Assembly (NCBI GenBank): GCA_009746045.1
Contig: RPFO01000312.1
Coordinates: 3,856,002 to 3,920,001 of the forward strand
Direction: 5' to 3'
DNA length: 64,000 nucleotides
Source: Mesostigma viride
Lineage: Eukaryota; Streptophyta; Mesostigmatophyceae; Mesostigmatales; Mesostigmataceae
A program made the translations under genes and the position numbers. Within the stretch, counting starts at the first letter, position 1. Every line of letters begins with the position of its first letter. The notes under the pieces are model-generated. The model did not search any database. It was not told the DNA's origin and saw only the letters and a program-made list of their open reading frames with translations. Of this stretch, positions 29,580 through 54,177 are shown in pieces.

Positions 29580-29700
29580 TCTACTTGCTGGTTTGCTTCC
29601 CTACTTGCCGGCGCACTTCCCCAGTTCCTGCTCCACAGCTCCACTTGCCGGTCCACTTGCCCTACTTGCCGGCACATTCCCCCTCGCACTTCTTCAGCAC
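29580..29700. repeat. Short repeats at the 3' end of the HAD gene
   Basis: Imperfect units of ctacttgccggtccactt overlap the last codons and the start of the 3' UTR. Confidence 0.6.
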
Positions 29701-32317: not shown

Positions 32318-33517
32318 AGAAACGCCTTATCAGCGGTTTACGCTATTGCGGTAATTTTCTTTCAGTCATTAGCACCGGCCTGCTTGCTGCCATGTGGTCC
32401 CCCTAATTGAAACTAATGTTGAATGGGCGTGACATCTGTTCCAGGGCCCTGCCCAGCTACTTGGCTATGGCCGCCATTCAGGCATTCGTGCAGAATACGG
32501 CGTCGTGGAAATAGACAATGGCAGAGCTCTCGTTCCCACAATTTGGTTATTACGCGAATGTTATCACCATCACTAGAGAGCGCAGGACGTGACAGAGTCA
32601 ACATTCAGAAATCGGGACTGCCATATATTCCACGTCGACTTATTACTTATTTAGATCCTTGGCTGCACTGGACATATGGTTCAGCCTGCTCACAGCGCTG
32701 TAATTGAAGATGAGGGGCACGCGCGCGTGCGCTGTCTTGCAGGCGTCCCCGTAGCTGATGCTGACACACCATTGCCTGCGTGGCACGCTGTGCCACCTAA
32801 GCCTTCCACCACTAATAACAAGTGGACGGAAAACCGCATACGGACCATTTACATATGCTTCAAGTTGCGTGACCTGGATCGACTGGCTGGGGAAAAGCGG
32901 TGCACGTGACTTGGATGAGGGGAAGGGGAAGCATACACCCACCCACGTCGAACAGACATGACCCCACCCACTCACCACTCATCAGTCATCACCAGTCACA
33001 GTCACCACACCACCATGCCAGCAACAGTCGCATGCATGGACAAAAGGGGCGTTGTTATGCCGGGTTACAGTCAATTCTAGATTGAGGACCCTACCGCGTA
33101 CGCATACGCTGGGAGGCGGCCACTGCCGTAACATCTTTGAAATCGTCCATGTGTGGACGTGACAGGCGGGCGGGCTTTGTCGTCTCGGCGAAATATTGCG
33201 TGCTCGATTGCGAACATGGGAGGCCTGGGGTGTATGAGAACCAAGTACGTGGCTCTCGGCACGACTGGAAAAGGCGCTATATGTTTAAAATTTTTGCGCA
33301 TCTTTCGAGCAAAAAGCGCTTCTGGGATATTATATTTCTTGGATTGCGGCTAGGATGAACCTTGGTCTCTTGTGAACGACCGTTAATATGGGTTCTTATT
33401 TGGCGACGAAATAGGTACGAGAGTTCACGTTACGAAATTACCAGAATTCAAACTCTTTTTGGCAAGCACTTCACGGGCCGTGACGCGAGGATCGAATCCC
33501 CGTTCCGCCTGACCCCC
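32318..33517. promoter_or_regulatory. Divergent intergenic region between the HAD and COBRA-like genes
   Basis: The 1.2 kb separates two start codons that point away from each other, so both promoters should lie here. I see no clear TATA box or conserved element and no further gene. Confidence 0.5.
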
Positions 33518-33886
33518 ATGGCGAGGCCAATTTTCGCAGTGTTCCTCTTGTTAGCAGGTATGATATTGTGTTCCAAATGTGGAAATGCAAGGCCTTACGT
33601 GACAATAGTAACAGCTCCCCAACATGCGTGCAAGCCTTCTACAGGGCGCCGGGGTTTTGCGTGAATGTATGGGCTCACGTTGCTCCGGCCTTCCCGCACT
33701 GTGCAATTTTTTGGTACCGTTGTATTAATGCCACATGCAGGCACGATTACAGTGGTTGCGGCCCAAGGCACGGCCGACCTGTTCCCGCCCCCATCCCCGC
33801 CTCCACCGAACGCGTTGGAAGAGGCGTACTGGACAGACTGGATCAATAACGACCGGCCAGGCGGCCTGGGGGACTGGGAGCTACTG
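33518..33886 (+). other. COBRA-like gene exons 1-2: signal peptide and start of WxxW 1
   Basis: MARPIFAVFLLLAG from exon 1 joins TITVVAAQG from exon 2 across a split Gly codon; VVA-AQG is a good signal-peptidase site. A run FPPPSPPPPN precedes YWTDWINNDRPGGLGDWELL, the start of the first WxxW domain. Confidence 0.85.
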
Positions 33887-36800
33887 GTATGTTATGGGAG
33901 TCTGGGACCTATTTGGTTTTTGCGGAAGGCTGCAGGGGCCGGGGAATTCAATGTTTGTTATGGGAGTCTGAGAATTCCTGGCATGATGTGATGAGCAAAG
34001 GTCGTTTGTGCCACCACCCAGCACAGTAATTAGAATTATTTGGTGATAGGCATCGCATGCAGCAATACCCTTCCCCCCCTTGCACCGCTTGGTAATGATG
34101 TGGTGGGCCATCTCATGCGGCACCTAGCCTGCACTTGCTGACTTCTTGCACAAGTCCCTCATGCAGCTGCAAGTAACTATGCTTGTTCGTGAACCAGTCG
34201 CACATGTGCACACACGATGCTCTTTCCCTTCTCCCTCAATCCTGTGAAACCCCCACCCACCCACCCACCCACCCACCCACCCACCCACCCACCCACCCAC
34301 CCACTGTGCATGCATCGGTCCCCAGGGTGCAATGACAGCTGGCCAGTCATGCCCTGAACGCAAGGCCCCCACTGGCATCCAGTGCCGCCGCGTGAGGGAC
34401 CGCATGGACTGGAGCGTGACGGAGGAGTTCCAAGACTCGTACATATGCGACCCGCGCGTAGGGGGGCGGTGCTCCAACGACGCGCAAGCCGACGCGTGTG
34501 AGGACTTTGAAATCCGCCTGCGCTGCGGGGGCGTGTACGACCCGGACTTCAGCGGGGTGCTGCCTGAGCTGGTGTACAGGGACCTGCCAGGGTTCCAGTG
34601 CTGGGACGGCGTGGCGGTGCAGGTGAGTGCGTGTGCACGTGGCTGCGGACAATAATAGTGTGCAGAGATTATTAGTGTGCATTATTTGTGCGGCACCACA
34701 GGTAGTTTCTTAATAAAGCCTTGTTCCCAATGTGCTGAGAGAATAAAGGGATTTTTCCCCCACCCGCCACAGCACTTGGTTGTACCCGGGTATAACTAAG
34801 GCTTTTGGATGGGCACAATCCCTTGCCTTGCATTCTTGCATTACACCCCTCCATAATGTTATGAAATATTTAACCCGAGATGGTTGCGCTCCCTTGATCT
34901 CTTTTGTACGCAAAAACAATCTTTGATTGCTTACGATTGTCTTGTGCCCAACTCAGTCCCTAAACGGGCACACTGGACACGCAAGTGCTTACGTTCTGTC
35001 CAACCGGCTGGCCCCTGGAGAGAACTTCACGTCAATGCATGTGAAGTGGATGCCACTCTTAAGAGCACTTTGCTCTTTTCAGCACTCGCCACCTCACCTG
35101 ATGTGGAATAACCCAATGACACGTGGCGACATCGGGGCTTGGGGTGGCATGGGGACATGAACCGTTCAGACCATCAATAAGCACAGGACTGCTTCACAGT
35201 TCAGACCATGTACAGCATCCTCATCCTTGGTTATCCGAAAGCTCCTGCCATCGCTGCTCACCCTTCTACTCCTGGCTGCCCCCCCAGGTACCCTGGCCTG
35301 TGTTTACCTCTTTGACATTGATTGTCATTGCTGTTGTCATTGGCGGAAAACGATGGAAGAATACGCCTCCCATGACCGCGAGTACTCTCCTTCTCTATTC
35401 CGATCCTTGTCCAATCTTTCCTGACATCTGACTTGCTACTCTGCGCGGAATATCGTACTAATTGGTATCTGGTGACAAACGGCGGCAGTACCTCTTCCAC
35501 CGCGAGTACTCCCGCCAGCGGTTCCCCAACGGTGACTATAGGGACTACGAGTGCGGCACGTGGGCGAACCTGCCCTGCGAGTTCTCTGCCGCCGTGATCG
35601 TGACCAACACGGGCACCCGCGCGCTGCGGGATTGGAAGGCGCAGGTGACGTTTGGCAGCTACAACGAGAGCGTCACGGCGGTGTTCAACGGGAAAGCAAC
35701 GCCCACCCCGCCCACAACAGGTACGCCAAGGTTTGAAACCCAAGTAGCACAATGGACCTTGTACCGAATGTTTCTTGGGGGAATGCCGGTGAGCTGTTCT
35801 GGGCTGTTACATCAAGTGAAAGCAACACTATAACCAGTAAAGCCATTTACTGGTGTCATAGCTATCTGGTAAGCTATGAGATATGTTGAAGAGGAAGAGA
35901 TTTATCGTCCTGGTAATAATGCCCACCCACCCACCCAACCAAAGAAATAATGGAGCATTATCATCCTGCGCATATCCAAGCCGGAGATACCGCTCTGAAC
36001 GCGACCGCTTCCTGTGACGTAGAAACGTTCACCCTCGGACACCCATCGACATCATTTGTCAGACGCATGTGAAACTGAGGCGTCCCGACAAGATCTTTTG
36101 TCAGACGTCGGCCTTTCGTCTTCTTGATTCACTGTTCCATGAGCCGTGGAAGTCAAGGCTAACCAGACTCTATATAGAAACAATATAATCAACTACGAAA
36201 GGCAGGCCATATCCCAGCCGCATATGCTCATGGGAACACTTATTGCTTGTCGAAACACTATAACGACCTTAACTCAACCACCACCACCACCCCGGACCCC
36301 CACATGTGTGTGCTCTCCCTGGTCTTTCTGCATCCATCCCCCAGGGTCTCGCGTTCTCTTCTCCCCTTTGTGGCGCGACAGCCTGCAAAGCTACACGGAA
36401 GCTGGCGCGCAGCTGCGCAACTTCCAAGAGTACATCGTGCTGCAAGGCATCAAGAAGCCGTTCAAAGGGAGCAACCCGTACGACAGCCTGCCCTCGTGGG
36501 TGGAGCTGCAGACGGTAGACCACCTCTGCCCCGGCCAGATCCTAGGTAGGTGCACGACAGGGGAGGTTATTATATTGACTAGAGGCGGTGCCAGATCCAT
36601 GAAATGTGCACAACGGGGGGTAATTATACTGATCAAACACCGGGCCAGATCTTTAGCAGGTGCACAGCAAGGGGTGTGATCCTAAATATGGTCTAAAAAT
36701 GGTACCAAGTCTTAGGTATGCACAGGGGCGGTTTTGCGGCCTATCCAGTAAGTCTTTTCCCTTGAAAAGGACGCAACCTTTTCAGTGCACTTGCCAAGAA

Positions 36801-39800
36801 TCAGGGGAGCATTTGTGGGAACTCTTTTTTTTTTTTAATGGCGGGGCATGTTCTGCGATGCTTATCAAAAGGGTATTGGTGCTGCTTATGCATTTGGTGG
36901 AGATGCAACTCATTTCGTCCCCGTGCCTAGTTGTGAACCCCCTCCCCGTGCGTCTCTCTATAATACTGTACTCTTCACCCCCCCCTTCATTCTCCCCCCC
37001 CCCTCCATCACTGCACTAAAGCGCTCTCCATCCCTTGCGTGTCATTGTACTTATGTATTTCACGACTCCAGCGCAATCAGACGAGGACTCGTGGACACCC
37101 TGGATCAACGTGGACAACCCGAGCGGGCTCGGCGACTGGGAACTGCTGTCATCCGCGGTTCTTCCCCGTTCCACAGACATTGCAGGCTCCACCACCACCG
37201 GCACCCCTCAGCCCGTGTGCCTAGGGGAGACCCCTACGCGCATCCAGTGCCGGCGCGTGCGGGACGGCGCCCACTGGCACACCCTCGCCGCGTTCAACGG
37301 CACGTACGTGTGCAGCACCGAGGTGGGCGGCCGGTGCGACAACGCCGCGCAGGTCACGCCGTGTGAGGACTTTGAGATCCGCGTGCAGTGCCCGCCGCTG
37401 CGGGGCACGGGCGATCAGCTCTTCACGCGTGAGTGTGCGGATGGGGGGATGGTTGATGGGTACATGCGTACGGGTAAGTGTGGAAACACATGGGTAAGTG
37501 TGTGCGAAGGCTGTTTATGGATACGGGACTAGAGCCTCGCGTGGAAGTGGGGGGTTGAATGGGTTGACCTAGCTTGGGGGAAACCAATAATTGGCTGGGG
37601 AAGAAGTGCCCATGCTTAATTACGGGGTACATGGGTAGGCATTGGGACAAGTAATAAGCATTGGGACAAGTAATGAGCATGGGAAAAGTGGGTAGGCGTG
37701 TCCAGCCGTTTGCGGCTGAGCGTGGGCACATGCGGTTCCGACCTCGGTGGGGGTGGGGACTAGGCGATGTATGGTTGAGCGTGGGGACAACTTGGTGCGC
37801 GTTCACGCTTGCCTATTTGTGCTATGAAAGTGCTGGGGAAAACAGATCATGCGCAAGCGTTGCAAACACAGGAAAGAGACGCTGCCTAAGGGTTCCCGGC
37901 CTGGCATGTAGTAGGTTAGGGGGTCATGTGGCGACGAAGAGCCAGGGAATGCCGCGCCCCTGACGCGTTGGCATGGAGATTTCTAGGTTTGGCTGGACAG
38001 TGGGCGGGAGCCTTATGCAGGCAACGTCACTAGCTCCCACTTACATGAGAAGGTCAGGCCTTGATATCTGCTGCAGAAGGCCTTGATATCTGCCGCATAG
38101 ACCTTAAAATGCAGCATAAGGCCCTGATTTCTGAAGCATAAGGCCTCGAAATGCAGCATTAGGCCTTGATATTTGCCGCATAAGGCCTTGAAATGCAGCA
38201 TAAGGCCTTGACATCTTCCGCATGGTAGAGGCCTTCGCGGAGACGGCCCTGTGGATGTTCTATATATGCAGTGCCCCCCTCTCTCAGGCACCTGGTCTTG
38301 CCTCACCATGATAGCCGCGCATGTGTGCCTGTGTCAAGCATGTGTGCCTGTGTCTAGCATGTGTGCCTGTGTCTAGCATGTGTGCGTGTGTCAGGCATGT
38401 GTGCCTGTGTCTAGCATGTGTGCGTGTGTCAGGCATGTGTGCCTGTGTCAAGCATGTGTGCCTGTGTCAAGCATGTGTGCCTGTGTCAAGCATGTGTGCC
38501 TGTGTCAAGCATGTGTGCCTGTGTCAAGCATGTGTGCGTGTGTCAAGCATGTGTGCCTGTGTCAAGCATGTGTGCGTGTGTCAAGCATGTGTGCCTGTGT
38601 CAAGCATGTGTGCGTGTGTCAGGCATGTGTGCCTGTGTCAAGCATGTGTGCCTGTGTCTAGCATGTGTGCCTGTGTCAAGCATGTGTGCGTGTGTCAAGC
38701 ATGTGTGCCTGTGTCAAGCATGTGTGCGTGTGTCAGGCATGTGTGCCTGTGTCAAGCATGTGTGCGTGTGTCAGGCATGTGTGCCTGTGTCAAGCATGTG
38801 TGCCTGTGTCAAAGCATGTGTGCGTGTGTCAAGCATGTGTGCGTGTGTCAAGCACGTGTGCGTGTGTCAAGCATGTGTGCGTGTGTCAAGCACGTGTGCC
38901 TGTGTCAAAGCATGTGTGCGTGTGTCAAGCATGTGTGCGTGTGTCAAGCATGTGTGCCTGTGTCAGGCATGTGTGCGTGTGTCAGGCATGTGTGCCTGTG
39001 TCAAGCATGTGTGCGTGTGTCAGGCATGTGTGCCTGTGTCAAGCATGTGTGCCTGTGTCAAGCATGTGTGCCTGTGTCAAAGCATGTGTGCGTGTGTCAA
39101 GCACGTGTGCCTGTGTCTAGCATGTGTGCGTGTGTCAGGCATGTGTGCGTGTGTCAGGCATGTGTGCGTGTGTCAAGCATGTGTGCGTGTGTCAAGCACG
39201 TGTGCCTGTGTCAAGCATGTGTGCGTGTGTCAGGCATGTCTGCCCCCCATTCCCGAGGCTTCGCAAGAGGGCCCCCCTTTGGAACTGACTCTGTGGTAAA
39301 ATCTGGTCAGTACGCTCACCACGTCTGCCGTGCCTCCTGTGCTCCAACCGTGTGCATCGGTGTTCCGTGGTCCGAGCAGCGGACGGCATCGCGGTGTGCT
39401 GCCAAGAAGTGCCGTTGTCGCAGATACCAAGCCCCCCACCGCCCCCTCCGGCCGTCCCAGGTGCATAACTGTGAACCTATGCCTCGCTTTTGCAGTGTTT
39501 AGTGTCCCTTTGTCATAATCGTTTTTTCAATAGCTGGGAGAAGCTCGCCTTGAAAGCGTGTTCCATACGAACGCTTGTTCCATAGGAAAACTTGCTCCAT
39601 AGGAAAACTTGCTCCACAGGAACGCTTGTTCCACAGGAAAGCTTGCTCCACAGGAAAGCTTGCTCCACAGGAAAGCTTGCTCCACAGGAAAGCTTGTTCC
39701 ACAGGAAAACTTGCTCCACAGGAAAGCTTGCTCCACAGGAAAACTTGCTCCATTAATAGGAAAACTTGCTCCACAGGAAAGCTTGTTCCACAGGAAAGCT

Positions 39801-42800
39801 TGCTCCATAGGAAAACTTGCTCCACATGAAAGCTTGCTCCACAGGAAAGCTTGCTCCACAAGAAGGCTTGTTCCAAAGGAAAGCTTGCTCCATAGGAAAG
39901 CTTGCTCCATAATAGGAAAGCTTGCTCCACAGGAAAGCTTCCTCCACAGGAAAGCTTGCTCCACAGGAAAACTTGTTCCACAGGAAAGCATGTTCCACAG
40001 GAAAGCTTGCTCCACAGGAAAGCTTGCTCCATAGGAAAACTTGCTCCACAAAAAAGCTTGTTCCACAGGAAAGCTTGCTCCATAGGAAAGCTTGCTCCAC
40101 AGGAAAGCTTGCTCCACAGGAAAGCTTGAGCATCCATAGGAAAGCTTGCTCCACAGGAAAGCTTGTTCCACAGGAAAGCTTGCTCCATAGGAAAGCTTGC
40201 TCCACAGGAAAGCTTGTTCCACAGGAAAGCATGTTCCACAGGAAAGCATGTTCCACAGGAAAACTTGTTCCACAGGAAAGCTTGCTCCACAGGAAAGCTT
40301 GCTCCACAGGAAAGCTTGCTCCACAGGAAAGCTTGCTCCACAGGAAAACTTGCTCCACAAGAAAGCTTGCTCCACAGGAAAGCTTGCTCCACAGGAAGGC
40401 TTGTTCCATAGGAAAGCTTGCTCCATAATAGGAAAGCTTGCTCCATAGGAAAGCTTGCTCCACAATAATAGGAAAGCTTGCTCCACAGGAAAATCTTGCT
40501 CCACAGGAAAGCTTGTTCCACAGGAAAACTTGCTCCACAGGAAAACTTGTTCCACAGGAAAACTTGCTCCACAGGAAAGCTTGCTTTACAGGAAAGCATG
40601 TTCCACAGGAAAGCTTGCTCCACAGGAAAACTTGATCCACAGGAAAGCTTGCTCCACAGGAAAGCTTGCTCCACAGGAAGGCTTGTTCCACAGGAAAGCT
40701 TGCTCCATAGGAAAGCTTGCTCCATAGGAAAGCTTGCTCCATAATAGGAAAGCTTGCTCCACAGGAAAGCTTGCTCCACAGGAAAGCTTGCTCCATAGGA
40801 AAACTTGCTCCACAGGAAAGCTTGTTCCACAGGAAAGCTTGTTCCACAGGAAAGCTTGTTCCACAGGAAAGCTTGCTCCACAGGAAAGCTTGTTCCACAG
40901 GAAAACTTGTTCCATAGGAAAGCATGTTCCACAGGAAAGCTTGCTCCATAATAGGAAAGCTTGCTCCACAGGAAAGCTTGCTCCACAGGAAAGCTTGCTC
41001 CACAGGAAAGCTTGTTCCACAGGAAAGCTTGTTCCACAGGAAAGCTTGTTCCACATGAAAACTTGCTCCACAGGAAAGCTTGCTCCACAGGAAAGCTTGT
41101 TCCATAGGAAAGCTTGCTCCATAGGAATAACTTGTTCCACAGGAAAGCTTGTTCCACAGGAAAGCTTGTTCCACAGGAAAGCTTGCTCCACAGGAAAGCT
41201 TGCTCCACAGGAAAGCTTGCTCCACAGGAAAGCTTGTTCCACAGGAAAGCTTGTTCCACAGGAAAGCTTGTTCCACAGGAAAGCTTGCTCCACATGAAAG
41301 CTTGCTCCACAGGAAAGCTTGCTCCACAGGAAAACTTGTTCCACACGAACGCTTGTTCCACAGGAAAGCTTGCTCCACAGGAAAGCTTGCACCACAGGAA
41401 AACTTGTTCCACAGGAAAGCTTGTTCCATAGGAAAGCATGTTCCACAGGAAAGCTTGCTCCATAGGAAAGCATGTTCCACAGGAAAGCTTGCTCCACAGG
41501 AAAACTTGATCCACAGGAAAGCTTGCTCCACAAGAAAGCTTGCTCCACAGGAAAGCTTGCACCACAGGAAAACTTGTTCCACAGGAAAGCTTGTTCCACA
41601 GGAAAGCTTGCTCCACAGGAAAGCTTGCTCCACAGGAAAGCTTGCTCCACAGGAAAGCTTGTTCCACAGGAAAGCTTGTTCCACAGGAAAGCTTGTTCCA
41701 CAGGAAAGCTTGCTCCACATGAAAGCTTGCTCCACTGGAAAGCTTGCTCCACAGGAAAACTTGTTCCACACGAACGCTTGTTCCACAGGAAAGCTTGCTC
41801 CACAGGAAAGCTTGCACCACAGGAAAACTTGTTCCACAGGAAAACTTGTTCCATAGGAAAACTTGCTCCATAGGAAAGCTTGCTCCATACGAAAGCATGT
41901 TCCACAGGAAAGCTTGCTCCATAATAGGAAAGCTTGCTCCACAGGAAAGCTTGCTCCACAGGAAAGCTTGCTCCACAGGAAAGCTTGCACCACAGGAAAA
42001 CTTGTTCCACAGGAAAACTTGTTCCATAGGAAAGCATGTTCCACAGGAAAGCTTGCTCCATAATAGGAAAGCTTGCTCCACAGGAAAGCTTGCTCCACAG
42101 GAAAGCTTGCTCCACAGGAAAACTTGTTCCACAGGAAAACTTGTTCCATAGGAAAGCTTGCTCCACAGGAAAGCTTGCTCCACAGGAAAGCTTGCTCCAT
42201 AGGAAAGCTTGCTCCACAGGAAAGGTTGCTCCACAGGAAAGCTTGTTCCACTGGAAAACTTGTTCCACAGGAAAGCTTGCTCCATAGGAAAGCTTGCTCC
42301 ACAGGAAAGCTTGTTCCACAGGAAAGCTTGTTCCATCCATAGGAAAGCTTGCTCCATAGGAAAACTTGTTCCACAGGAAAGCTTGTTCCACAGGAAAGCT
42401 TGCTCCACAGGAAAGCTTGCTCCACAGGAAAGCTTCCTCCACAGGAAAGCTTGCTCCACATGAAGGCTTGTTCAACAGGAAAGCTTGCTCCACAGGAAAG
42501 CTTGTTCCACAGGAAAGCTTGCTCCACAGGAAAGCTTGTTCCACAGGAAAGCTTGTTCCATAGGAAAACTTGCTCCATAGGAAAGCTTGCTCCACAGGAA
42601 AGCTTGCTCCACAGGAAAGCTTGCTCCACAGGAAAACTTGTTCCACAGGAACGCTTGTTCCACAGGAAAGCTTGCTCCACAGGAAAGCTTGCGCCACAGG
42701 AAAACTTGTTCCACAGGAAAACTTGTTCCATAGGAAAGCATGTTCCACAGGAAAGCTTGTTCCATAGGAAAACTTGCTCCATAATAGGAAAGCTTGCACC

Positions 42801-45800
42801 ACAGGAAAGCTTGCTCCACAGGAAAGCTTGCTCCATAGGAAAACTTGCTCCACAGGAAAACTTGTTCCACAGGAAAACTTGCTCCACAGGAAAGCTTGCT
42901 CCACAAGAAGGCTTGTTCCACAGGAGCACTTGTTCCACAGGAAAGCTTGCTCCACAGGAAAGCTTGTTCCATAGGAAAGCTGGTTCCACGGGAAGCCTTG
43001 TTCCACAGGAAAGCTTGCTCCATAGGAAAACTTGCTTCATAGGAAAACTTGCTCCATAGGAAAGCTTGCTCCATAGGAAAGCTTGCTCCATAATAGGAAA
43101 GCTTGCTCCACAGGAAAGCTTGCTCCACAGGAAAGCTTGCTCCACAGGAAAGCTTGTTCCACAGGAAAACTTGCTCCACAGGAAAGCTTGCTCCATACGA
43201 ACGCTTGCTCCATAGGAAAGCTCGCTCCATAATAGGAAAGCTTGCTCCACAGGAAAACTTTCTCCACAGGAAAGCTTGTTCCACATGAAAGCTTGCTCCA
43301 CAGGAAAGCTTGCTCCACAGGAAAACTTGCTCCACAGGAAAGCTTGCTCCACAGGAAAACTTGTTCCACAGGAAAACTTGTTCCACAGGAAAGCTTGTTC
43401 CACAGGAAAGCTTGCTCCATAATAGGAAAGCTTGCTCCACAGGAAAGCTTGCTCCACAGGAAAACTTGTTCCACAGGAAAGCTTGCTCCACAGGAAAACT
43501 TGTTCCATAGGAGCACTTGTTCCACAGGAAGGCTTGTTCCACAGGAAAGGTTGCTCCACAGGAAAGCTTGCTCCACAGGAAAGCTTGTTCCACAGGAAAA
43601 CTTGTTCCACAGGAAAACTTGTTCCATAGGAAAACTTGTTCCAGACGAACGCTTGTTCGATGGGAAAGCTTGGTCCATAGGAAAGCTTGCTCCACAGGAA
43701 AGCTTGCTCCACAGGAAAGCTTGTTCCACAGGAAAACTTGCTCCACAGGAAAGCTTGCTCCATAATAGGAAAGCTTGCTCCACAGGAAAGCTTGCTCCAT
43801 AGGAAAGCTTGCTCCATAGGAAAGCTTGCTCCATAGGAAAGCTTGCTCCACAGGAAAACTTGCTCCACAGGAAAGCTTGTTTCACAGGAAAGCTTGTTCC
43901 ACAGGAAAACCTGCTCCATAGGAAAGCTTGTTCCACAGGAAAGCTTGCTCCACAGGAAAGCTTGTTCCACAGGAAAGCTTGTTCCATAGGAAAACTTGCT
44001 CCATAGGAAAGCTTGTTCCATAGGAAAACTTGCTCCATAATAGGAAAGCTTGCTCCACAGGAAAACTTGCTCCACAGGAAAGCTGGTTCCGCAGGAAAAC
44101 TTGTTCCATAGGAAAACTTGTTCCATACGAACGCTTGTTCGATAGGAAAGCTTTCTCCATAGGAAAGCTTGCTCCATAGAAAACTTGCTCCACAGGAAAG
44201 CTTGTTCCACAGGAAAGCTTGTTCCATAGGAAAACTTGCTCCACAGGAAAGCTTGCTCCATAGGAAAGCTTGCTCCATAATAGGAAAGCTTGCTCCACAG
44301 GAAAACTTGCTCCACAGGAAGGCTTTTTCCACAGGAAAACTTGCTCCATAGGAAAGCTTGCTCCATAGGAAAACTTGCTCCATAATAGGAAAGCTTGCTC
44401 CACAGGAAAACTTGCTCCATAGGAAAGCTTGCTCCACAGGAAAACTTGTTCCATAGGAAAACTTGTTCCATACGAACGCTTGTTCCATAGGAAAGCTTGC
44501 TCCATAGGAAAACTTGCTCCATAGGAAAACTTGTTCCACAGGAAAGCATGTTCCACAGGAAAACTTTCCGGGCCTGTCTCGTTTGGATCAAGATTGCTGC
44601 GTGAGCTCCCAACAAGTTCTCTTAGGGCCCTGATAAGCGTAAGTGATAAAACACCACGCAGCAGTCATATTCCAGACAAACCTTGAAGGTTTCACGAACC
44701 TGTTGTATTATGAAGACTTCTTACATTACACGTTATAAGCAGCATATGGTACCACGGATACACATGCGCTGGTTGTTCATGTGTATGAGCGCTGGGGGCA
44801 AGGCGTGGAGAGAAGGGAGGTGGCTAATGACATTGCATGCAGATAATAAATTACTCTTCTTCGAGGGAAATTTTTTTTCCCACAAGAATGTCATCTGGAC
44901 GCAGGGGCCATGTTTGACATCGATACTCTTCCCTTGTTGCGCCTGGCAATCAAGCCGCAGATGATATCGCGGTTCATTCTTTTCCTTTGCACTATCGTCT
45001 ACTAATGATGCTTCTAACTCTACTCCATGTTCCTGTGCTGGTCAGATGACGATGACAGCAACACGTGTGAGCTGTCGGTGGAGTTCGACGTGGTGGAGGA
45101 GTGGGTGGGCGGCTACGTGCTTGATTTCGCCATCGTCAACAGACAGAAGTATCTGGACGTTAGCAGCCCTGCGTGGGCGCTGGACTGGACGTTCACCAAG
45201 TCAGAGTATGTGTCAGTCAGACCACTATGGTCATAGTTGCAGCATATTGCACATATGAACACCTCATGGCATCTTATAGGCACCACTGTAAGTAAGTAAT
45301 TAAGTAATTGCGTGTCATGCGCATGGGCATGCCTTAGAGTACTATGCTAATCTCATTAGAAAAAATAATTACACGAAACTTACAAACATCGCCTGCATCA
45401 TCCCCCAACCATATAGTCACTAAGGCACCACTGGGTACGCCTGCCAATAAACCATACGCCACTCCATGCTGCAGGGGGGCACATGGGCAAGATAGGAGAG
45501 GATCTGGTGTTAGAAAGAGCTCCCAGCGGGTGTGAGCTCTTGGTCCTTCACAACACGGCTTAGCCAATGTTGCAAGGCAGCAACCTTAAATCTGTGCACC
45601 AGGCCACGACCACGGTGGGCACTTCCACGACCAAGGTGGCACCCACGGTTCGTGCTTGCCGAGATAGCTGGTCATCCCCCATGACCAAGCTATATCCTTT
45701 GTGTTGTTCCTCGTTCTCATCGGCGTGACGAGGCACGTGCAGGCGTGCAAGCAAATCCTCAACGTCCACTGGCATCAGTGCAGAGCCAGGACGAACTGGA

Positions 45801-48800
45801 TTTGCCTAGGCTCTGCAACCTAGGAAGTACAGGACCTGTCACAGGCCTGCAAGGCCTAGTATCCTTGCAGCCCTGTGCTAGTTCCAGTACCCCACCAGTC
45901 ACAGGCTGCTGCTCCTCCTGGTCTACGTGGACCACAGTCACGTGATAGACAGGCTAAGCCTGTGCAGGGACGTCCTGCCACGTGTCCTGTCCACTATACC
46001 AGAGGACTGCACCCTAGTCGGCCACGGATGGCTAGGACTTCGGGACTTCATATCTTTCTTGTCCCTTGTCTGTTTCAGGCGGTCAGCACGGCATTGGAAA
46101 GGTCTTTCCAAACTGTATCCACTTAGCATATTGGTTGCCCAAAATGCTAACTCCAACCCTTTCTTCTTTTGGAGCTGGACCAGCTTGAAACAAGCCTAAC
46201 CTTGCTTGTGCCCACTCGGCCACAGACCACTTGGTCCCTTGGGGTTGATCAGACCTGATAGGGCCCAGGGTCCTGCCTCCTTTTGGGTAACAACATATAT
46301 GCCCTTGGACCAGGCTGGGCGTACTGGCCAGTGAATCAGAGGTCACCCCAGGTTATCCCCTGACCCCTTGGTCAGCTCCCAACCTTTCCTTGGGAACTTG
46401 GTGCTAGAATAAAGTCAAGGCACATTACCTAGTCCAATGGCTGGGATTAAAGGATGCCAAGAACGTATTATTGTGAGCTCCTGATCTTTCACAGTTATCA
46501 CAGGCGCCCGTTCTTATGGCGCCCGCCTTGGCCAACCTTTCCCTTCTGTTTTAGAATTCTCAGGTACCTGGCCTTTATCTCTGCTCTCCATACAGCAGGT
46601 ACAGTCACAAAGAAAGGAGGGATATCTCTCCAAGTCTGCCTAGCCTGATCCTGGTCACCCTTGAGAAAAGCCCTCTTGAAATCAATCAGCACAGAGCTAT
46701 AGGGCACACCCTTAACCAGAAAAGACAGAAATATACACAGCAGAATCCTCCACGTGTCATGCAGCATCCCTGGAGTATAGAGTTCCTCATCTAACAACTG
46801 GCCAGTGCCATGATACTCGGTTACAAATGGTCTGACATGTGGCACCTGGACACCATCTACCTCCTTGAGCTTGAGGACAAACATCAATCTGAGCAGCTGG
46901 TGAACTTCTGGCAGCTCATCCACAGGTTCTGCACAGTTGGAAACTATCCACTCATGCCCAGAAGCAACAAAGCCAAGAGTCCATGCCTTAGCCATCTTCA
47001 TGTCCAACGTGCCGACGGAGCGGGCCATAGAGCCTTCGCAAAGCCAAAGCTCGCAGCCGCAGCTTCGGGTGGCAGGCCCGGAGCGAACACGACCTTTTCA
47101 TCCTTACGCTCATCCGAGCACCGCATCGACCTTCGTCCAGGCGGCGTACCTGGCGAGGGGGTTGGCGAAGAAAGGTTGGGTAGCGGTTTGTGGAACCGCA
47201 GCGGGGCCGGCAGCGAGCGACCCCATAGTGATGCAAATTGAGACATCGAAAGCTCCCGGCGAATTGTCGCGAGAAGCCGTCGAAAAGTTTGTGTCGCTGA
47301 GGGACGAGCTTTCCTCGACGATTTACGGTTTGGAGGTGGCTCACCAGGGCGGGCACGTGACCGTGCAGCAGCTGGATTTGGCGCGGTAGGCACTGGGCCA
47401 GATAGTGGCCATTGGATTGGGGGCAGCGCGGCTGTTCAACCATCAGGTGGCGACTTCTGTGCTGGGCGCGGGAGTTGAGGTCCCGGACGTGATCAGACAA
47501 GCGCAGGCGCGCGAGGTCGACAACCCCTGGTCGACGGCAGAGGTGGTTTCCCAGACGTGCGAACACCTTGTGAACATTCTTTTGCAGGAGTCACGAGGCA
47601 ACGCCGATCGGTGGGTTATAACCACTCGGCCATTTGGGATTTGGTCAACACTCGACACACCGCGGGCGGCGGAACCAGAAGCTCACGATCCAGTGGTCGA
47701 GGTAATCACGGGTCGAGAGGTCACGCCAGAAGATTTCCACTACCAGTTCGTTGATCAACCAGAGGGGATCATCGAACGTTCATCTCAGCAGATAGACGAG
47801 GGCGACGGTACCGTAGAAGGGTACGCTGCACGACGTCGTGCTGAGCTGCACGTCCCGCAAGAGCCCGAGCACGATTACGGTGGTCGTGGGGCCTGCAACG
47901 ACAAGCGGGGTGGTGGGACGCGGTGGGTGAGAAACATCGAGTGGGATCGCAAGGCGAGCGAGCCCCAGATTCCAGTGGAGAAGTCTGCAGACGGGCGACC
48001 CGTTAGCAGAGTGCTAGGACCTTACGCCGACGGGGAGGACGCCGCTGGCAGCGACGAGGAGCGGCCAGAGACGCCCATCGCGACCACAGCTCAAGAACGG
48101 GAGCTTGAGGCAGCGAATCAAGCAGGTGCTGAGTCGGTAGCTGGGACGGTGCCCACGGCGTCCTCCAGCAATACCAGCACTTGAGTCAGTTCTTCCTTTT
48201 TCCTTCGCCTTTATTGTTGTGTCCACGACTCAGCACCTGCTTGATTCGCTGCCTCAAGCTCCCGTTCTTGAGCTGTGGCCGCGATGGGCGTCTCTGGCCG
48301 CTCCTCGTCGCTGCCAGCGGCGTCCTCCCCGTCGGCGTAAGGTCCTAGCACTCTGCTAACGGGTCGCCCGTCTGCAGACTTCTCCACTGGAATCTGGGGC
48401 TCGCTCGCCTTGCGATCCCACTCGATGTTTCTCACCCACCGCGTCCCACCACCCCGCTTGTCGTTGCAGGCCCCACGACCACCGTAATCGTGCTCGGGCT
48501 CTTGCGGGACGTGCAGCTCAGCACGACGTCGTGCAGCGTACCCTTCTACGGTACCGTCGCCCTCGTCTATCTGCTGAGATGAACGTTCGATGATCCCCTC
48601 TGGTTGATCAACGAACTGGTAGTGGAAATCTTCTGGCGTGACCTCTCGACCCGTGATTACCTCGACCACTGGATCGTGAGCTTCTGGTTCCGCCGCCCGC
48701 GGTGTGTCGAGTGTTGACCAAATCCCAAATGGCCGAGTGGTTATAACCCACCGATCGGCGTTGCCTCGTGACTCCTGCAAAAGAATGTTCACAAGGTGTT

Positions 48801-51800
48801 CGCACGTCTGGGAAACCACCTCTGCCGTCGACCAGGGGTTGTCGACCTCGCGCGCCTGCGCTTGTCTGATCACGTCCGGGACCTCAACTCCCGCGCCCAG
48901 CACAGAAGTCGCCACCTGATGGTTGAACAGCCGCGCTGCCCCCAATCCAATGGCCACTATCTGGCCCAGTGCCTCCCGCGCCAAATCCAGCTGCTGCACG
49001 GTCACGTGCCCGCCTTGGTGAGCCACCTCCAGACCGTAAATCGTCGAGGAAAGCTCGTCCCTCAGCGACACAAACTTTTCGACGGCTTCTCGCGACAATT
49101 CGCCGGGAGCTGTCGATGTCTCAATTTGCATCACTATGGGGTCGCTCGCTGCCGGCCCCGCTGCGGTTCCACAAACCGCTACCCATCCTTTCTTCGCCAA
49201 CCCCCTCGCCAGGTACGCCGCCTGGACGAAGGTCGATGCGGTGCTCGGATGAGCGTAAGGATGAAAAGGTCGTGTTCGCTCCGGGCCTGCCACCCGAAGC
49301 TGCGGCTGCGAGCTTTGGCTTTGCGAAGGCTCTATGGCCCGCTCCGTCGGCACGTTGGACATGAAGATGGAAAGGAGACAATAATACGAGTTAGAAAGAG
49401 CTCCCAGCGGGTGTGAGCTCTTGGTCCTTCACAGCACGGCTTAGCCAATGTTGCAAGGCAGCAACCTTAAATCTGTGCACCAGGCCACGACCACGGTGGG
49501 CACTTCCACGACCAAGGTGGCACCCACGGTTCGTGCTTGCCGAGATAGCTGGTCATCCCCCATGACCAAGCTATATCCTTTGTGTTGTTCCTCGTTCCCA
49601 TCGGCGTGACGAGGCACGTGCAGGCGTGCAAGCAAATCCTCAACGTCCACTGGCATCAGTGCAGAGCCAGGACGAACTGGATTTGCCTAGGCTCTGCAAC
49701 CTGGGAAGTACAGGACCTGTCACAGGCCTGCAAGGCCTAGTATCCTTGCAGCCCTGTGCTAGTTCCAGTACCCCACCAGTCACAGGCTGCTGCTCCTCCT
49801 GGTCTACGTGGACCACAGTCACGTGATAGACAGGCTAAGCCTGTGCAGGGACGTCCTGCCACGTGTCCTGTCCACTATACCAGAGGACTGCACCCTAGTC
49901 GGCCACGGATGGCTAGGACTTCGGGACTTCATATCTTTCTTGTCCCTTGTCTGTTTCAGGCGGTCAGCAGGCGTTGGAAAGGTCTTTCCAAACTGTATCC
50001 ACTTAGCATATTGGTTGCCCAAAATGCTAGCTGCTGGGGGGGGGGGGGGGGGGGCAGCTGGGAAGGGCGGGCTGGCGACCAGGCCAGTTGGGTGGCGGGG
50101 CCGGGGAGCAGGTGGGCGAGCCGACGGGCAAAATGACGACAGGTGTTCAAGCTGCCCCATGATTCCCGAGGCCCTGAAATATCACCACCACCAACCATCG
50201 TTGCTGCAAGTCCACTACCGGCCTTGCATGTCATGTGCCGTCTACCGTGAATGGCCGTGTACAATCATTGGATCTTTCCTAGGGTAGTCACAGAAGCAAA
50301 AGTAAAGGCATCGTGTTTATTGGGTAAATTATAGTTAATGCTTTGTAGGCGACGAACACAGATCCTCTGTCACATCTTGTCGATGGCATGGTGACATGCT
50401 TAATGCAAGAATGGAGTTAGTAAGTGCTTATCCTAATTGGTTTTAGTAAAGCAGATGTACGATATCTGCCATTGCTAAATTGAATATTACTATGCGTTAG
50501 TCATACTGACTTCAAGTCTTATTGAGTACAGCACCTTTGGCCCTTGTTCTCCCATGCCCAGTTAACATGAGGGTGTAGATCTCTGCAGCTTTGTACATTT
50601 CTACCCTAACACATATGCTCCCTGTGCCCTGCTTCTTCTGCTGCCTGCAACCATGGACCCGGACCAGGTGGATCTGGGCCATGTGGAGCGTCTTTGATGC
50701 CAGGGCGCCCTCAGGTGGGTATCGCTACCTTCATGCTGCTTGCTGAGTTTTTAGATAATCTAGCTCCGCGGTATAGGGCCACCCACGCACGTTGTTTTAA
50801 TGATGAACCAGGGCCAACAAACCGCTAGCAGACACCACCACAGGAGACCCCAGGGACGAGGCGACAAGAACAAAGATTTTTTCAATACCTTGTATGTTCG
50901 AGTCAGCGATGCTTGCTGCAGAGACCGGCGCGACGGGCAGGGCATGCCAGAAAGCAGATGGCGCCTATCTCGCACGTCACCCTTACAGGAGGTTGCGTTT
51001 GAGGAAGCCATGCATCTAGCCAGGAAGCAGTGCCCCAGTAGGCTGGGAACCCCAGGCACTTGGCATGGTACTTTGTTGGGGCAAGGTGCTGCGGGTAACT
51101 GAATGGTTACCATGGGAGTAACCATGGGTTACCATGGGTGGGCAGCCGCTACGAGATGGCCTGAACAGGAACGTTCTCATCTCATCCAAGGCATCTCAAA
51201 ACATTCAGCATTCGCTTACACTTACCACAAACCCGAACATCCTTGCCCCGGCTCCTTTGTTACCGCACACCTTTACGCCTGCAGCCGACTGCCGCTCCAA
51301 CCATGCCTGCCCCAGTTTGTACTTCTTCGCTTACACTTTCCTTCCGGTGCATATCCTTTCGTCCCGCAGCCAACTGCAGCGCCAACCCGGGCCAGTACAT
51401 GGACAAGATTGATCTGACACGCAAGGCGCAAAGCTGCAGCATTCAGCCGCTAGTGCGGGACAAGCTGTGAGTGCGGGGGGTGATGTGAGCCATGAATGGG
51501 CGGAGGTGACAAGCTGTGAGGGGGGGGGGGTGATGTGAGCCATGAATGGGCGGAGGTGACAAGCTGTGAGGGGGGGGGGAAACTGACATGCCGTGAGGGG
51601 GGGACTCAGGTGCACTGTCGCAGCCAGATGGTATCTTACATCGCTACACTGCGGCGGCCGGTCACGCGTAGGCATGATTCAATCATCTGATCCCGTGAAT
51701 TCAAGGCACGATTCAGTCATTTTCCTTGCCTCAATGGAATACACTGCAAGCTCAAGACAAGCAGCTACGCAGGCAGTAAGGGGATGAGTGAGCGATCGTA

Positions 51801-54177
51801 GGGTCCCTATTCATTTTTGTGCATGTCGGGACCCTGCCCGTTTGCGCCGCGATGACTGTCCAACATACTGTGATGCCACATGCGCCCGTGTGCCCTTGCA
51901 CTCGGGCAGGCCTCATTCCTTATTTTCCCTGATTTCCCCTGATATTTCCTAGTTTTCATCATACTAATTTTCTGGAGCTACACCGCTGCCGTAAGGGCTT
52001 GTACTTCAGACTGCACGGTCACGCCAGGAGGCCCGGAACTGTTGGGGGGCGCACCCGAAGATGAACCATCCATGCGCTGGCTGTCCTGTGTTCCCATCAC
52101 ACGCATGCCTCCCCACGCAAGGATTCAGCTGGCGTGGCACATTGACACACAGCCCGGGATGATGCGGGCTATTTTGATTGTCTAATGCGTGTGCATGTGC
52201 GTGTGTGCGCGTGTGTGCGCCACTCTCTGTATGCAATCACTCCTCCTGGGCCCACAGAAACGGCGGCTACATCCCGCCCGCCATTGAAGCGCCCAACAAC
52301 CGCGCAACCTTTGGCATGAACGTGGGCAAGCCCCAGCTCACCGCGGCCGACTACGCCCCCCAGCCTCTGGTGAACATCTCCTTGCAGATGCCAAGCGTGT
52401 GGTGCGAGAAACCGGTGCCGGCGGCAGTCAAGCGCTCCGCCCGCATGTACGACGACGACGGAAACCCGACGGGAAACTGGCGCGTGGCAGCAGGTCAGAA
52501 TGCGCTGCGCGCATGTCTGTCCGATTCCTTGTTTCAAGCCCACCCCCTTGGTGTTGTCATGAAGCTGATGGCGTCTTACAGGGCCGTGACGATGTCCTGC
52601 TGCCATCCATGTGAGCCTTGTGTATACAAGCCTCCCTTACAAGGACCGTCTGCAACTGAGGACCCGTGCTTCCCTAGTTGTCTTCATCTCTGAGAGGCCT
52701 CAGGCCCGGACACAGGCATAAGCAACGTTGCCGCTGTGGTTGTTCTACACCGCTCATGCACTGTACTGCAAGGCCATGCACAAGTGTCTCATTGGCAATC
52801 GCCGATCGTTTCTAACAAAAGAACCTACGGCGTCACTGGACTTCCTTTCCGCACTGACTGCTCTGTCGAGGACACCTGGCTCATGTATGGCTACTGGACT
52901 GCGTCACTGTTTTACATCATGCATGGGTTCATCATTGCCGTCCCTTGGTTGCAGAGTCCTACAACCAGTGCTGCCACATGTCCAAGGTCGTCAATACCGC
53001 ATCGCCCACCTGCTGCGTGGCGGTATCCGGTGCGTATCATGCATGGCCTATGAGACTTGGCCATGTACAGGCACATAAGTTCATCTATATTATATACATG
53101 TTGGTCAGGCCATGCAGAGCTGCCATTGGGCCTTGTCAGGTGCCCCTTTTGTTCCACAGAGCTCCATGGATGAAGCTGCCAGGTGCAGTGACAAACCAAC
53201 ATATACCTTAGCAGGTTCAAGCCAGGTTAATAATACTTCGCAGTAGCTGGGGTCGGTGCTGTCAGCTGATGGGAAGGCCTTCTTGGGAATCATCATGCAA
53301 AGCTGGGATAGCTGTACAGTTCTGATATCGCACGGCCGGTCACTTACTGGCTGTCTACAGCAATATGTAGTGCTGTACGTAGACTTCATGTTCAAAACGT
53401 CATAGTCTACCCTCCCTGCTTCTCCATCTAACTGCTTTAACATGTCCACCATGTACACATGCCTTGCTGCCCGCAGCGCACTACGTCACTGATCCCCCGC
53501 GCTGTCGATCGTGTCCGTGTGGGGGCAACTGCACGCGCGTTGACGCTACCACGCTCAACCTGGAGCCTGAGGAGCGCGCGCGAAACTGCGGCGCGCGCGT
53601 GCTTTTATATTTCCTGGACGAGTGGAGCAACGGGTACCGCGCAACCATATCCATCATCAACCAGGACGCCAGCGCGCCGATAGCCCACTGGAGTCTCGCG
53701 TGGGCGTTTGGCGACGAGGAGCGACTGTTGAACGTCACAGGGGCTGACGCGCTGGACGACGACGCCGAGGACGTGGTGTTTGTGCCGATGGCGTACATGC
53801 GGCACCGGGGGGAGGCGGTGCTGGCACCACTTGGCACGGTCACATTTGAGGTGGTCGTGATGACACGCGCGGGGGTGCTCCCCAAGGCCCCCCGCCGGGT
53901 CCTATTGGGGGGGTTCGAGTGTGCAGCGCCGGGGCAGATGCCGCTGCGACCGCGTTTCCCTGAGACGTCGGCTGCCGTCTCGTTGGTGAATGCAGGGCTG
54001 TATGGGCAGGTCACGCGGGGATATCGATCTTTCTTTGGACCTACAATTATGTCATCGAAGCTGTTCTCTCCAGTAGCCTCCTTCACGGATGCACTGGTCA
54101 TCCTGCTGCAAGTGGGCGCATGGTGGCCTTGGCTGCCGTTGGCATGCGCCGTGGCCCTGTTTGCATTTCTTGTTTAA
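33518..54177 (+). CDS. Secreted COBRA-like protein with two mucin-type WxxW domains, ten exons
   Basis: Exons: 33518-33557, 33741-33886, 34326-34622, 35489-35720, 36345-36545, 37072-37428, 45046-45205, 51380-51466, 52258-52493, 53477-54177. All junctions are GT-AG and phases close to 818 residues. Order: signal peptide (1-21), Pro-rich linker, WxxW domain 1 (43-129), a domain like the N-terminal region of plant COBL7 (162-305), WxxW domain 2 (312-412), COBRA domain (425 to about 740), hydrophobic C-terminus (790-818) suiting a GPI-anchor signal. COBRA proteins are GPI-anchored wall proteins that affect cellulose assembly. WxxW domains are Cys-rich extracellular modules known from animal mucins. 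The role in wall or matrix is inferred. Introns 6 and 7 are 7.6 and 6.2 kb. Confidence 0.88.
34255..34304. repeat. (CCCA)n tract before the exon 3 acceptor
   Basis: Twelve CCCA units end about 20 bases before the CAG acceptor. Confidence 0.9.
34326..34622 (+). other. COBRA-like gene exon 3: rest of WxxW domain 1
   Basis: APTGIQCRRVRDRMDW, YICDPRVGGRCSNDAQ and CEDFEIRLRC carry the conserved Cys pattern of the family, ending at Cys129. The exon then adds a 30-residue acidic link. Confidence 0.88.
35489..36545 (+). other. COBRA-like gene exons 4-5: COBL7-type N-terminal domain
   Basis: CEFSAAVIVTNTGTRALRDW and AQVTFGSYNESVTAVFNG in exon 4, and YTEAGAQLRNFQEYIVLQGI with LQTVDHLCPGQIL in exon 5, follow the pattern of the 170-residue region before the COBRA domain in plant COBL7-type proteins (a beta-rich, CBM-like fold). 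The comparison is from memory. Confidence 0.72.
37072..37428 (+). other. COBRA-like gene exon 6: WxxW domain 2
   Basis: SWTPWINVDNPSGLGDWELL, TRIQCRRVRDGAHW, YVCSTEVGGRCDNAAQ and CEDFEIRVQC repeat domain 1 almost residue for residue, with a Ser/Thr-rich loop of about 20 residues inserted. The two domains look like an internal duplication. Confidence 0.9.
38055..38228. repeat. Irregular 20/40-bp repeat in intron 6
   Basis: Seven aggccttgatatct- or gcataaggcc-type units. Confidence 0.8.
38320..39240. repeat. 19-bp minisatellite, about 48 copies, in intron 6
   Basis: The unit is ATGTGTGCCTGTGTCAAGC, with variable CC/CG and AAG/TAG/AGG positions. All plus frames lack stops, giving frames of up to 393 codons (CACVKHV repeats) that are artefacts of a stop-free 19-mer. 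Confidence 0.96.
39558..44568. repeat. 17-bp minisatellite, about 295 copies, in intron 6
   Basis: The unit is TTGCTCCACAGGAAAGC with frequent T/C (tTcc), C/T (caTagg) and G/A (gaaaAc) changes and occasional ATAATAGG spacers. Larger blocks recur, for example 41330-41440 and 41750-41860, so there is higher-order structure. Seventeen is not a multiple of three and the unit has no stop, so all minus frames stay open for up to 1620 codons (EQAFLWSKLSCGASFPV). I treat these as repeat artefacts. Confidence 0.97.
45046..45205 (+). other. COBRA-like gene exon 7: start of the COBRA domain
   Basis: CELSVEFDVVEEWVGGYVLD and APAWALDWTF-like text (SPAWALDWTFTKS) match the opening of the COBRA domain, where plants have a 'W..GYVA.V...NYQ.YRHI..PGW.LGW.W' pattern. 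In rice BC1 this region binds cellulose. Confidence 0.85.
45509..46149 (+). repeat. Left LTR-like direct repeat
   Basis: Begins at TGTTAGAAAG and ends aaaatgcta; pairs with 49390-50029 with only a few differences. Confidence 0.85.
46498..47028 (-). CDS. Unrecognised 176-codon ORF in the LTR-type element
   Basis: An open frame with protein-like composition (LPEVHQLLRLMFVLKLKEVD, MLHDTWRILLCIFLSFLVKG) lies between the left repeat and the palindrome, and its first codons overlap the palindrome arm. I do not recognise it and it may be chance. Confidence 0.25.
   Translation of the reverse strand: MARSVGTLDMKMAKAWTLGFVASGHEWIVSNCAEPVDELPEVHQLLRLMFVLKLKEVDGVQVPHVRPFVTEYHGTGQLLDEELYTPGMLHDTWRILLCIFLSFLVKGVPYSSVLIDFKRAFLKGDQDQARQTWRDIPPFFVTVPAVWRAEIKARYLRILKQKGKVGQGGRHKNGRL
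47000..48184 (+). pseudogene. Gag-like gene, plus-strand copy, one nonsense codon
   Basis: The same protein as the minus-strand copy, but codon Glu after QQLDLAR is lost to a TAG at 47387-47389, splitting it into two frames (to 47389 and from 47405). The C-terminus differs beyond the palindrome arm, ending SVAGTVPTASSSNTST. Confidence 0.7.
48211..49362 (-). CDS. Gag-like gene, intact minus-strand copy
   Basis: 383 codons. The N-terminus is Ser/Gln/Pro-rich (MSNVPTERAIEPSQSQSSQP). A helical region follows (SREAVEKFVSLRDELSSTIY, QQLDLAREALGQIVAIGLGA, VVSQTCEHLVNILLQESRGN), then an acidic, charged C-terminal half (DGEDAAGSDEERPETP). Position inside an LTR-type element and overall make-up suggest a gag-like protein, but I see no zinc knuckle or other named motif. 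The start chosen is the first Met after the purine tract. Confidence 0.5.
   Translation of the reverse strand: MSNVPTERAIEPSQSQSSQPQLRVAGPERTRPFHPYAHPSTASTFVQAAYLARGLAKKGWVAVCGTAAGPAASDPIVMQIETSTAPGELSREAVEKFVSLRDELSSTIYGLEVAHQGGHVTVQQLDLAREALGQIVAIGLGAARLFNHQVATSVLGAGVEVPDVIRQAQAREVDNPWSTAEVVSQTCEHLVNILLQESRGNADRWVITTRPFGIWSTLDTPRAAEPEAHDPVVEVITGREVTPEDFHYQFVDQPEGIIERSSQQIDEGDGTVEGYAARRRAELHVPQEPEHDYGGRGACNDKRGGGTRWVRNIEWDRKASEPQIPVEKSADGRPVSRVLGPYADGEDAAGSDEERPETPIAATAQERELEAANQAGAESWTQQ
49390..50029 (+). repeat. Right LTR-like direct repeat
   Basis: Copy of 45509-46149. A 19-base G run (50036-50054) follows at once. Confidence 0.85.
50055..51379. other. Rest of intron 7, nothing recognised
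   Basis: Short ORFs only. Confidence 0.4.
51380..51466 (+). other. COBRA-like gene exon 8, small
   Basis: The acceptor is the second of two nearby CAGs; only this one keeps the phase with exon 7. It encodes NPGQYMDKIDLTRKAQSCSI and a short basic end, the position of the Cys-containing 'P..VDL...C' segment of COBRA domains. It is the least certain exon. Confidence 0.6.
51459..51600. repeat. About 50-bp tandem repeat copying the exon 8 splice donor
   Basis: GACAAGCTGTGAG occurs at 51459, 51508 and 51558, each followed by a G run and tgatgtgagccatgaatggg. Confidence 0.85.
52258..52493 (+). other. COBRA-like gene exon 9
   Basis: NGGYIPPAIEAPNNRATFGM and VNISLQMPSVWCEKPVPAAV correspond to the plant 'KGG...W.....A..SFQV.VG' and 'YTC..A' segments. 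The donor is GTCAGA, a weaker site that is required by phase. Confidence 0.75.
53477..54177 (+). other. COBRA-like gene exon 10: rest of COBRA domain and GPI signal
   Basis: CRSCPCGGNC corresponds to the plant CP-CSCGC segment. GARVLLYFLDEWSNGYRATI, SIINQDASAPIAHWSLAW and VVFVPMAYM continue the domain; FECAAPGQMPLRPRFP ends it. The plant CCVS motif is absent. A 28-residue hydrophobic tail (WWPWLPLACAVALFAFLV) ends the protein. Confidence 0.88.

Follow-up and report, generated by a model that had tools for sequence, protein, structure and literature searches.

Could a single gene join a module best known from animal mucus with modules of the type that bind cellulose in plant walls? The question is raised by a locus in the 64,000-nucleotide stretch of DNA analysed here (the window), in which an earlier note had described a ten-exon gene for a COBRA-like protein carrying two mucin-type WxxW domains. 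We judge it evenly balanced whether positions 33518–54177 hold, as a whole, one plus-strand gene of ten or eleven exons that encodes a secreted, cell-surface-held protein of about 814–868 residues with the linker role proposed below. That exon 1 and the last exon belong to the same gene is the firmer part of this reading, and we think it likely. As read from the sequence, the predicted protein has a signal-peptide-like start, WxxW domain 1, module 1, WxxW domain 2, modules 2 and 3, and a hydrophobic tail, in this order.

Gene Model and Coding Evidence

Rebuilding the ten-exon model from the sequence gave reading phases that all close and a protein of 818 residues, and all nine of its introns are of the GT-AG type. 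To that extent, the model holds. On the other hand, it lacks an 87-nt exon within intron 7, and one of its donors, at 52518, is weak. The model variants, when translated, gave 814, 818, 847 and 868 residues. The features are listed in Table 1.

Table 1. Features of the proposed gene. The last column gives the fraction of intronic controls that reached the score of the exon in the codon test.
Feature	Positions	Strand	Content	Codon test
Exon 1	33518–33557	+	Start codon; signal-peptide hydrophobic core (hydropathy)	735/2000
Exon 2	33753–33886	+	Last part of the signal peptide, then a proline-rich stretch; WxxW domain 1 starts at 33830	0/2000
Exon 3	34326–34622	+	WxxW domain 1 continued (ends at 34526), then linker	0/2000
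Exon 4	35489–35720	+	CBM2-like module 1, first half	0/2000
Exon 5	36345–36545	+	CBM2-like module 1, second half; phase closes	0/2000
Exon 6	37072–37473	+	WxxW domain 2 (37092–37391) and linker; PF13330 44.3 bits (ORF)	0/765
Intron 6	37474–45045	+	7572 nt, mostly two satellites	
Exon 7	45046–45205	+	CBM2/COBRA-like module 2, first strands	0/2000
Added exon	51380–51466	+	87 nt; phase 2 at both junctions; central part of module 2	0/2000
Exon at the end of module 2	52258–52493	+	End of module 2; longer form, to 52518, in the earlier note	0/2000 (longer form)
Doubtful small exon	52582–52610	+	Cys-Cys pair; exon 9 in the earlier note	977/2000
Last exon	53477–54177	+	Cys-rich stretch, module 3 (~53587–53934), hydrophobic tail (~54088–54174), stop	

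Coding potential was evaluated by a leave-one-out codon test, in which each exon received a score from a codon table of the remaining exons, to be compared with stop-free intronic stretches of equal length drawn at random. Exons 2–7, the longer form 52258–52518 and the added exon 51380–51466 were reached by none of their controls, a result that is partly dependent and somewhat flattering to the exons because the 5310 selected non-satellite intronic bases that furnished the controls also supplied the background table. Exon 1 and the small exon 52582–52610 were indistinguishable from intron by this test. The last exon was left without controls because no stop-free intronic stretch as long as this was found; its frame is open throughout, and its family match is that of module 3 to CBM_2 (25.7 bits). 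Furthermore, in the earlier model, the GC content at third codon positions ranged from 0.62 to 0.88 in the exons, compared with a GC content of 0.48–0.56 in the introns.

The 7-kb intron 7 was scanned for candidate exons that fit its phase. The leading candidate outside the repeat element that lies in this intron was 51380–51466, with a codon score of 9.6 compared with 6.3 for the runner-up outside the element; the candidates that scored higher were all within it. In the codon test, this exon scored 9.4, above the control maximum of 8.6, and its donor, GTGAGTGC, agrees with the consensus at 6 of 9 positions. Including it brought no gain in Pfam score (COBRA 19.8 bits without it and 19.5 bits with it). 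A likeness between its PLVRDKL and the PLWRDSL of exon 5 proved unconvincing, as it was reached by 81 of 2000 shuffles and by 135 of 2076 intronic windows. The support for this exon is therefore its codon use and its splice sites. A tandem 50-bp repeat (51459–51579) sets in at the exon's end and duplicates the final bases together with the donor.

Where does the exon that completes module 2 end? The donor at 52493 agrees with the consensus at 7 of 9 positions, is of phase 1 and joins the acceptor at 53477 directly, whereas the donor at 52518 agrees at only 3 of 9. For comparison, of the 1154 GT dinucleotides in 33600–53400, 34 reach at least 7 and 346 do not exceed 3. It was only through the weak donor at 52518 that the earlier model reached the small exon 52582–52610. 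On the other hand, the direct join from 52493 to 53477 removes the Cys-Cys pair, which we assume would sit at the CCVS position of plant COBRA proteins. Splice-site quality favours 52493 and the position of the Cys-Cys pair favours 52518/52582, so that either junction may be the true one. Reading through 52519–52581 as coding sequence is disfavoured, with a codon score of −6.8 over 20 codons. Exon 6, too, has two donors that close in phase, and it may truly end at 37428 instead of 37473; the codons between the two score −2.0 over 14.

Both ends of the predicted protein are hydrophobic. The N-terminus encoded by the spliced exons 1 and 2 has a 16-residue hydropathy mean of 2.32 at residue 1; exon 1 alone has 2.09 over 12 residues, and 3.29 when spliced to exon 2. 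The C-terminal tail is hydrophobic to the last residue, with a 19-residue mean of 1.83, and is a putative GPI signal or membrane span. By hydropathy, a signal-peptide-like start and a hydrophobic tail are both present; of the GPI-type tail described in the earlier note, it is the hydrophobicity that is seen. Single-sequence structure prediction of the last exon gave a mean pLDDT of 37.9, too low to use for the fold, in which only the tail was confident, as two helices.

WxxW Domains

Each of the two WxxW domains, when searched alone, exceeds the Pfam Mucin2_WxxW (PF13330) cut-off of 22.4 bits, with 53.4 and 47.0 bits, respectively, and each covers all 88 profile columns, so that both of the domains originally proposed are real members of this family. 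Exon 3 taken as an ORF by itself scores 29.7 bits against PF13330, and its donor agrees with the consensus at 9 of 9 positions. The two domains are 53% identical to each other, and both begin with W-x-x-W (WTDW at residue 40 and WTPW at residue 309).

A profile built from the two domains matched chains of known structure from MUC2, 8ck2 and 6tm6, at E-values of 7e-6 and 1.1e-5; weaker matches were another MUC2 chain (0.014), MUC5B (0.037) and MUC5AC (0.24). WxxW domain 2 alone reached an E-value of 0.027 in the same kind of search. Its single-sequence structure prediction, with a mean pLDDT of 46.3, was unusable for the fold.

The WxxW and module profiles revealed no copies outside this gene among the 1856 ORFs of at least 20 residues in the window, at E-values up to 10. 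Pattern scans of viral contigs returned 12 matching stretches for WxxW domain 2, 32 for the WxxW profile, 11 for the last exon and 7 for the module profile, and a scan of bacterial and archaeal genomes returned 31 for the WxxW profile; none is a confirmed relative, and the scans say little about relatives because each used 1–6 short patterns and the genome collection was bacterial and archaeal.

In mucins, the corresponding CysD domains are described as adhesion mediators in mucin assembly (excerpts of PMC11765562 and PMC9169620). Their contacts vary, since CysD1 of MUC5AC behaves as an exception (PMC11912381, excerpt). In the WxxW literature, tandem amplification is mentioned together with mucin-5AC (PMC8831618, excerpt), and the first appearance of CysD domains is placed in the Bilateria (PMC9169620, in its excerpted text).

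CBM2/COBRA-like Modules

Are the remaining modules those of a COBRA protein? The whole protein matched CBM_2 (PF00553) with 49.8 bits (E 4.6e-13; cut-off 24) over three stretches, the best of which spans columns 8–51 of 101, or roughly half the profile from its start. Its match to COBRA (PF04833) was marginal, at 28.2 bits over two stretches (cut-off 27), with further values of 27.7, 32.0 and 32.2 bits. The best COBRA stretch covers only columns 1–44 of 169, and pieces or single modules alone scored 16–20 bits, under the cut-off. The comparison with both families that had been suggested as a check of the architecture therefore gave a significant match to each, to COBRA narrowly.

Taken alone, module 3 passes the CBM_2 cut-off (25.7 bits) and stays under that of COBRA (17.1 bits), and module 2 is under both (COBRA 19.5 bits, CBM_2 13.0 bits), as is the ORF of exon 7 (COBRA 16.1 bits, CBM_2 17 bits). 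Module 1 matches CBM_2 with 20.8 bits, under the 24-bit cut-off, and no other family; the ORF of exon 4 behaves similarly (21 bits, E 4.3e-4, again under the cut-off), and exon 5 has no Pfam match of its own. The COBL7-type label that module 1 had been given is thus not borne out. Proteins of the COBL7 group are distinguished by an N-terminal extension of about 170 residues (excerpts of PMC9306554 and PMC7830662).

The COBRA C-terminal domain (COB_C, PF25079) reached only 10.4 bits in the protein (E 0.65; cut-off 27) and 8.8 bits in the ORF. CCVS, a named motif of the COBRA family (PMC10143436, excerpt), occurs in none of the model variants; CCHP is present only in those that include the doubtful exon 52582–52610. 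Because CBM_2 is the stronger match, COBRA is marginal, COB_C is under its cut-off and CCVS is missing, we use the label CBM2/COBRA-like and do not call this a canonical COBRA protein. What stands of the COBRA domain first described here is a narrow pass of the family cut-off; canonical membership is not supported.

A profile of the modules also led, with weak E-values of 0.0037–0.0092, to three cellulase or cellulose-binding chains (6f7e, 6qfs and 1exg), which we take to be CBM2 domains. Modules 2 and 3 have Gly-Tyr and W-x-L-x-W in common; in our reading of the alignment, module 1 is without the Tyr and keeps one of the two Trp. We infer that these residues of modules 2 and 3 correspond to Tyr46 and Trp72 of rice BC1, which are important for cellulose binding (PMC3749933, excerpt).

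Repeats and Neighbourhood

Introns 6 and 7 contain repeats. The satellites of intron 6 have a 19-bp unit (38319–39244) and a 17-bp unit (39552–44566; about 5 kb, about 291 copies); on the minus strand, a frame of 1622 codons stays open across most of the 17-bp satellite. Intron 7 holds a 4.5-kb repeat element (45509–50029) in which two 641-bp direct repeats, 99.2% identical and starting with GTTAG, surround a 1145-bp inverted repeat (99%; arms 46992–48136 and 48226–49370). A 375-residue frame in this element has no Pfam match at E-values up to 0.01.

Upstream, on the minus strand and divergent from the main gene, lies a gene for a HAD-family hydrolase (29680–32326), of which 29680–29955 and 30918–31133 are above the Hydrolase cut-off and 31772–32326 is below it (17.2 bits; cut-off 26.4). 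Downstream, also on the minus strand, a weak TPR-like piece (56108–56644), under the cut-off, overlaps a 14-bp tandem repeat (56338–56637). Elsewhere in the window, a minus-strand frame at 15828–16337 contains a CCHC zinc knuckle (31 bits; cut-off 20.8) and is probably a retroelement gag, and 5317–6015 is a perfect (CATC)n repeat, about 700 bp long.

One Gene or Two

Family matches, coding statistics and reading phase all support the core of the earlier proposal, namely that WxxW domains and COBRA/CBM2-like modules stand in one coding unit. The joins across introns 6 and 7 rest on phase and content, as intron 6 is mostly satellite and intron 7 holds the repeat element. Could the two halves then be neighbours that were falsely joined, with exons 1–6 encoding a secreted WxxW-CBM2-WxxW protein and exon 7 starting a separate COBRA-like protein? 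The gap between them (7.6 kb) is mostly made up of the two satellites, and the frame of the first half stays open until a stop at 37530, but the run-on after exon 6 has a negative codon score (−5.5 over 18 codons). Moreover, the first half would be without a hydrophobic tail and the second without a signal peptide. The non-satellite part of intron 6 was scanned for signal peptides in unspliced ATG frames only, and of its 26 ATG frames, 16 have a phase-1 donor, none of which reaches a hydropathy of 2.0. Four frames at 44910–45008, shortly before exon 7, match exon 1 alone in hydrophobicity (2.28–2.33, compared with 2.09), so that a second gene with a signal peptide split over two exons is conceivable; these four, the most hydrophobic of all, have no phase-1 donor, however. 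The donors of exon 6 at 37428 and 37473 are both of phase 1, the phase of exon 7, which argues weakly against two genes, since about one in three donors would agree. Similarly, TGTAA, which we take to be the chlorophyte poly(A) motif, is found 87 and 227 nt past the final stop and is absent from the 845 nt that open the gap, although by our estimate chance alone would give about 0.7–0.8 occurrences in each of the two stretches. Taken together, we regard two falsely joined genes as unlikely.

The repeats bear on another reading, in which the locus results from misassembly or is a gene in decay, its pieces joined or broken by them. Both the satellites of intron 6 and the repeat element of intron 7 would fit it, as would the junction 52493–52582, where no good splice preserves the frame of the Cys-Cys pair. 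However, the supported exons are stop-free, codon bias is strong on either side of each repeat, and the phases close across both, which makes such an origin highly improbable. A less remote but still rather doubtful alternative concerns the second half alone: its modules might be bacterial-type CBM2 modules that are not related to COBRA, the COBRA matches arising through a common beta-sandwich start. The higher whole-protein score of CBM_2 (49.8 compared with 28.2 bits), the restriction of the best COBRA stretch to the beginning of its profile, the low COB_C score and the missing CCVS all point this way, and the top PDB matches are bacterial-type glycanase or cellulose-binding chains. Nonetheless, COBRA scores above its curated cut-off, with 27.7–32.2 bits. 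The layout of the second half, with two modules flanking a Cys-rich stretch, a hydrophobic tail after these, and an end near the residues GFEC, also speaks against this alternative, as it resembles that of plant COBRA proteins.

Possible Function and Significance

What might such a protein do? We propose a surface-anchored linker with its CBM2-like modules on glucan and its WxxW domains on matrix proteins, in which every binding step is a proposal made by analogy. The Tyr and Trp of modules 2 and 3, of the kind used by COBRA and CBM2 cellulose binders, would grip the glucan in a wall, theca or scale. The compact WxxW domains, whose disulfide bonding is presumed from mucin CysD, would associate with one another or with glycoproteins of the matrix. 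Glucan-gripping modules and protein-contacting domains, held together at the cell surface, would in this way give a role as a linker from gel to polysaccharide, in which the protein ties a gel or a glycoprotein coat on the surface to a layer of polysaccharide close to the membrane. In the rice COBRA-like protein BC1, the carbohydrate-binding module binds crystalline cellulose via aromatic residues, the GPI anchor is required, and cellulose crystallinity is altered by the protein (PMC3749933, excerpt).

We suggest tentatively, and as a possibility that we would not yet favour, that the CysD/WxxW module, inherited from far back or acquired by gene transfer, also exists in a green-lineage protist and is joined there to cellulose-binding modules of the COBRA type as a linker from mucus to wall. 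COBRA-like modules and the TGTAA past the final stop are compatible with a green alga but fall short of proof. If true, a plant-type and an animal-type matrix system would meet in one molecule. If the locus is one gene and comes from an alga, an animal-mucus module would occur in a cellulose-associated surface protein outside animals, and the origin of CysD would be pushed back or complicated, so that the Bilateria-first statement in the excerpted text of PMC9169620 would need revising. Under the same condition, the protein would be a candidate for attaching surface gels or scales to polysaccharide walls, and the WxxW domain, as a partner of COBRA-like modules, would hint at how COBRA-like proteins contact matrix proteins.

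In the open-licence literature, we found nothing that joins COBRA, WxxW and mucin; Mucin2_WxxW turned up there only in salmon mucins and beetles, and COBRA together with prasinophyte apparently only in the metabolic-modelling sense of COBRA. Within their excerpted texts, the main text of a green-algal matrix review (PMC10762512) and the Cymbomonas genome paper (PMC5741210) mention neither COBRA nor mucin, and in a review of the macroalgal matrix, COBRA appears a single time, within a figure legend (PMC8307928, excerpt).

Comparison with Known Systems

The WxxW domains resemble the CysD domains of MUC2, MUC5AC and MUC5B in their W-x-x-W start and in the cysteines that are conserved with MUC2 in the alignments. 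Unlike the CysD of gel-forming mucins, with its ten cysteines and, according to PMC11912381 (excerpt), five disulfides in this fold family, each domain here has 6 cysteines. Furthermore, unlike the gel-forming mucins themselves, the protein has no VWD among its Pfam matches up to an E-value of 10 and no long Pro/Thr/Ser region, the only such feature seen by eye being the short proline stretch at residues 25–32. With the family 2 carbohydrate-binding modules of bacterial cellulases (PF00553), it shares the CBM_2 match over three stretches; it differs from these cellulases in that a catalytic domain is absent among its Pfam matches. Compared with the plant COBRA proteins (the Arabidopsis COB and COBL7 groups and rice BC1), it has three modules, the extra WxxW domains, no CCVS and a COB_C match that is under the cut-off. 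On the other hand, it is like them in combining a signal-peptide-like start, CBM2-type modules, a Cys-rich stretch and a hydrophobic tail.
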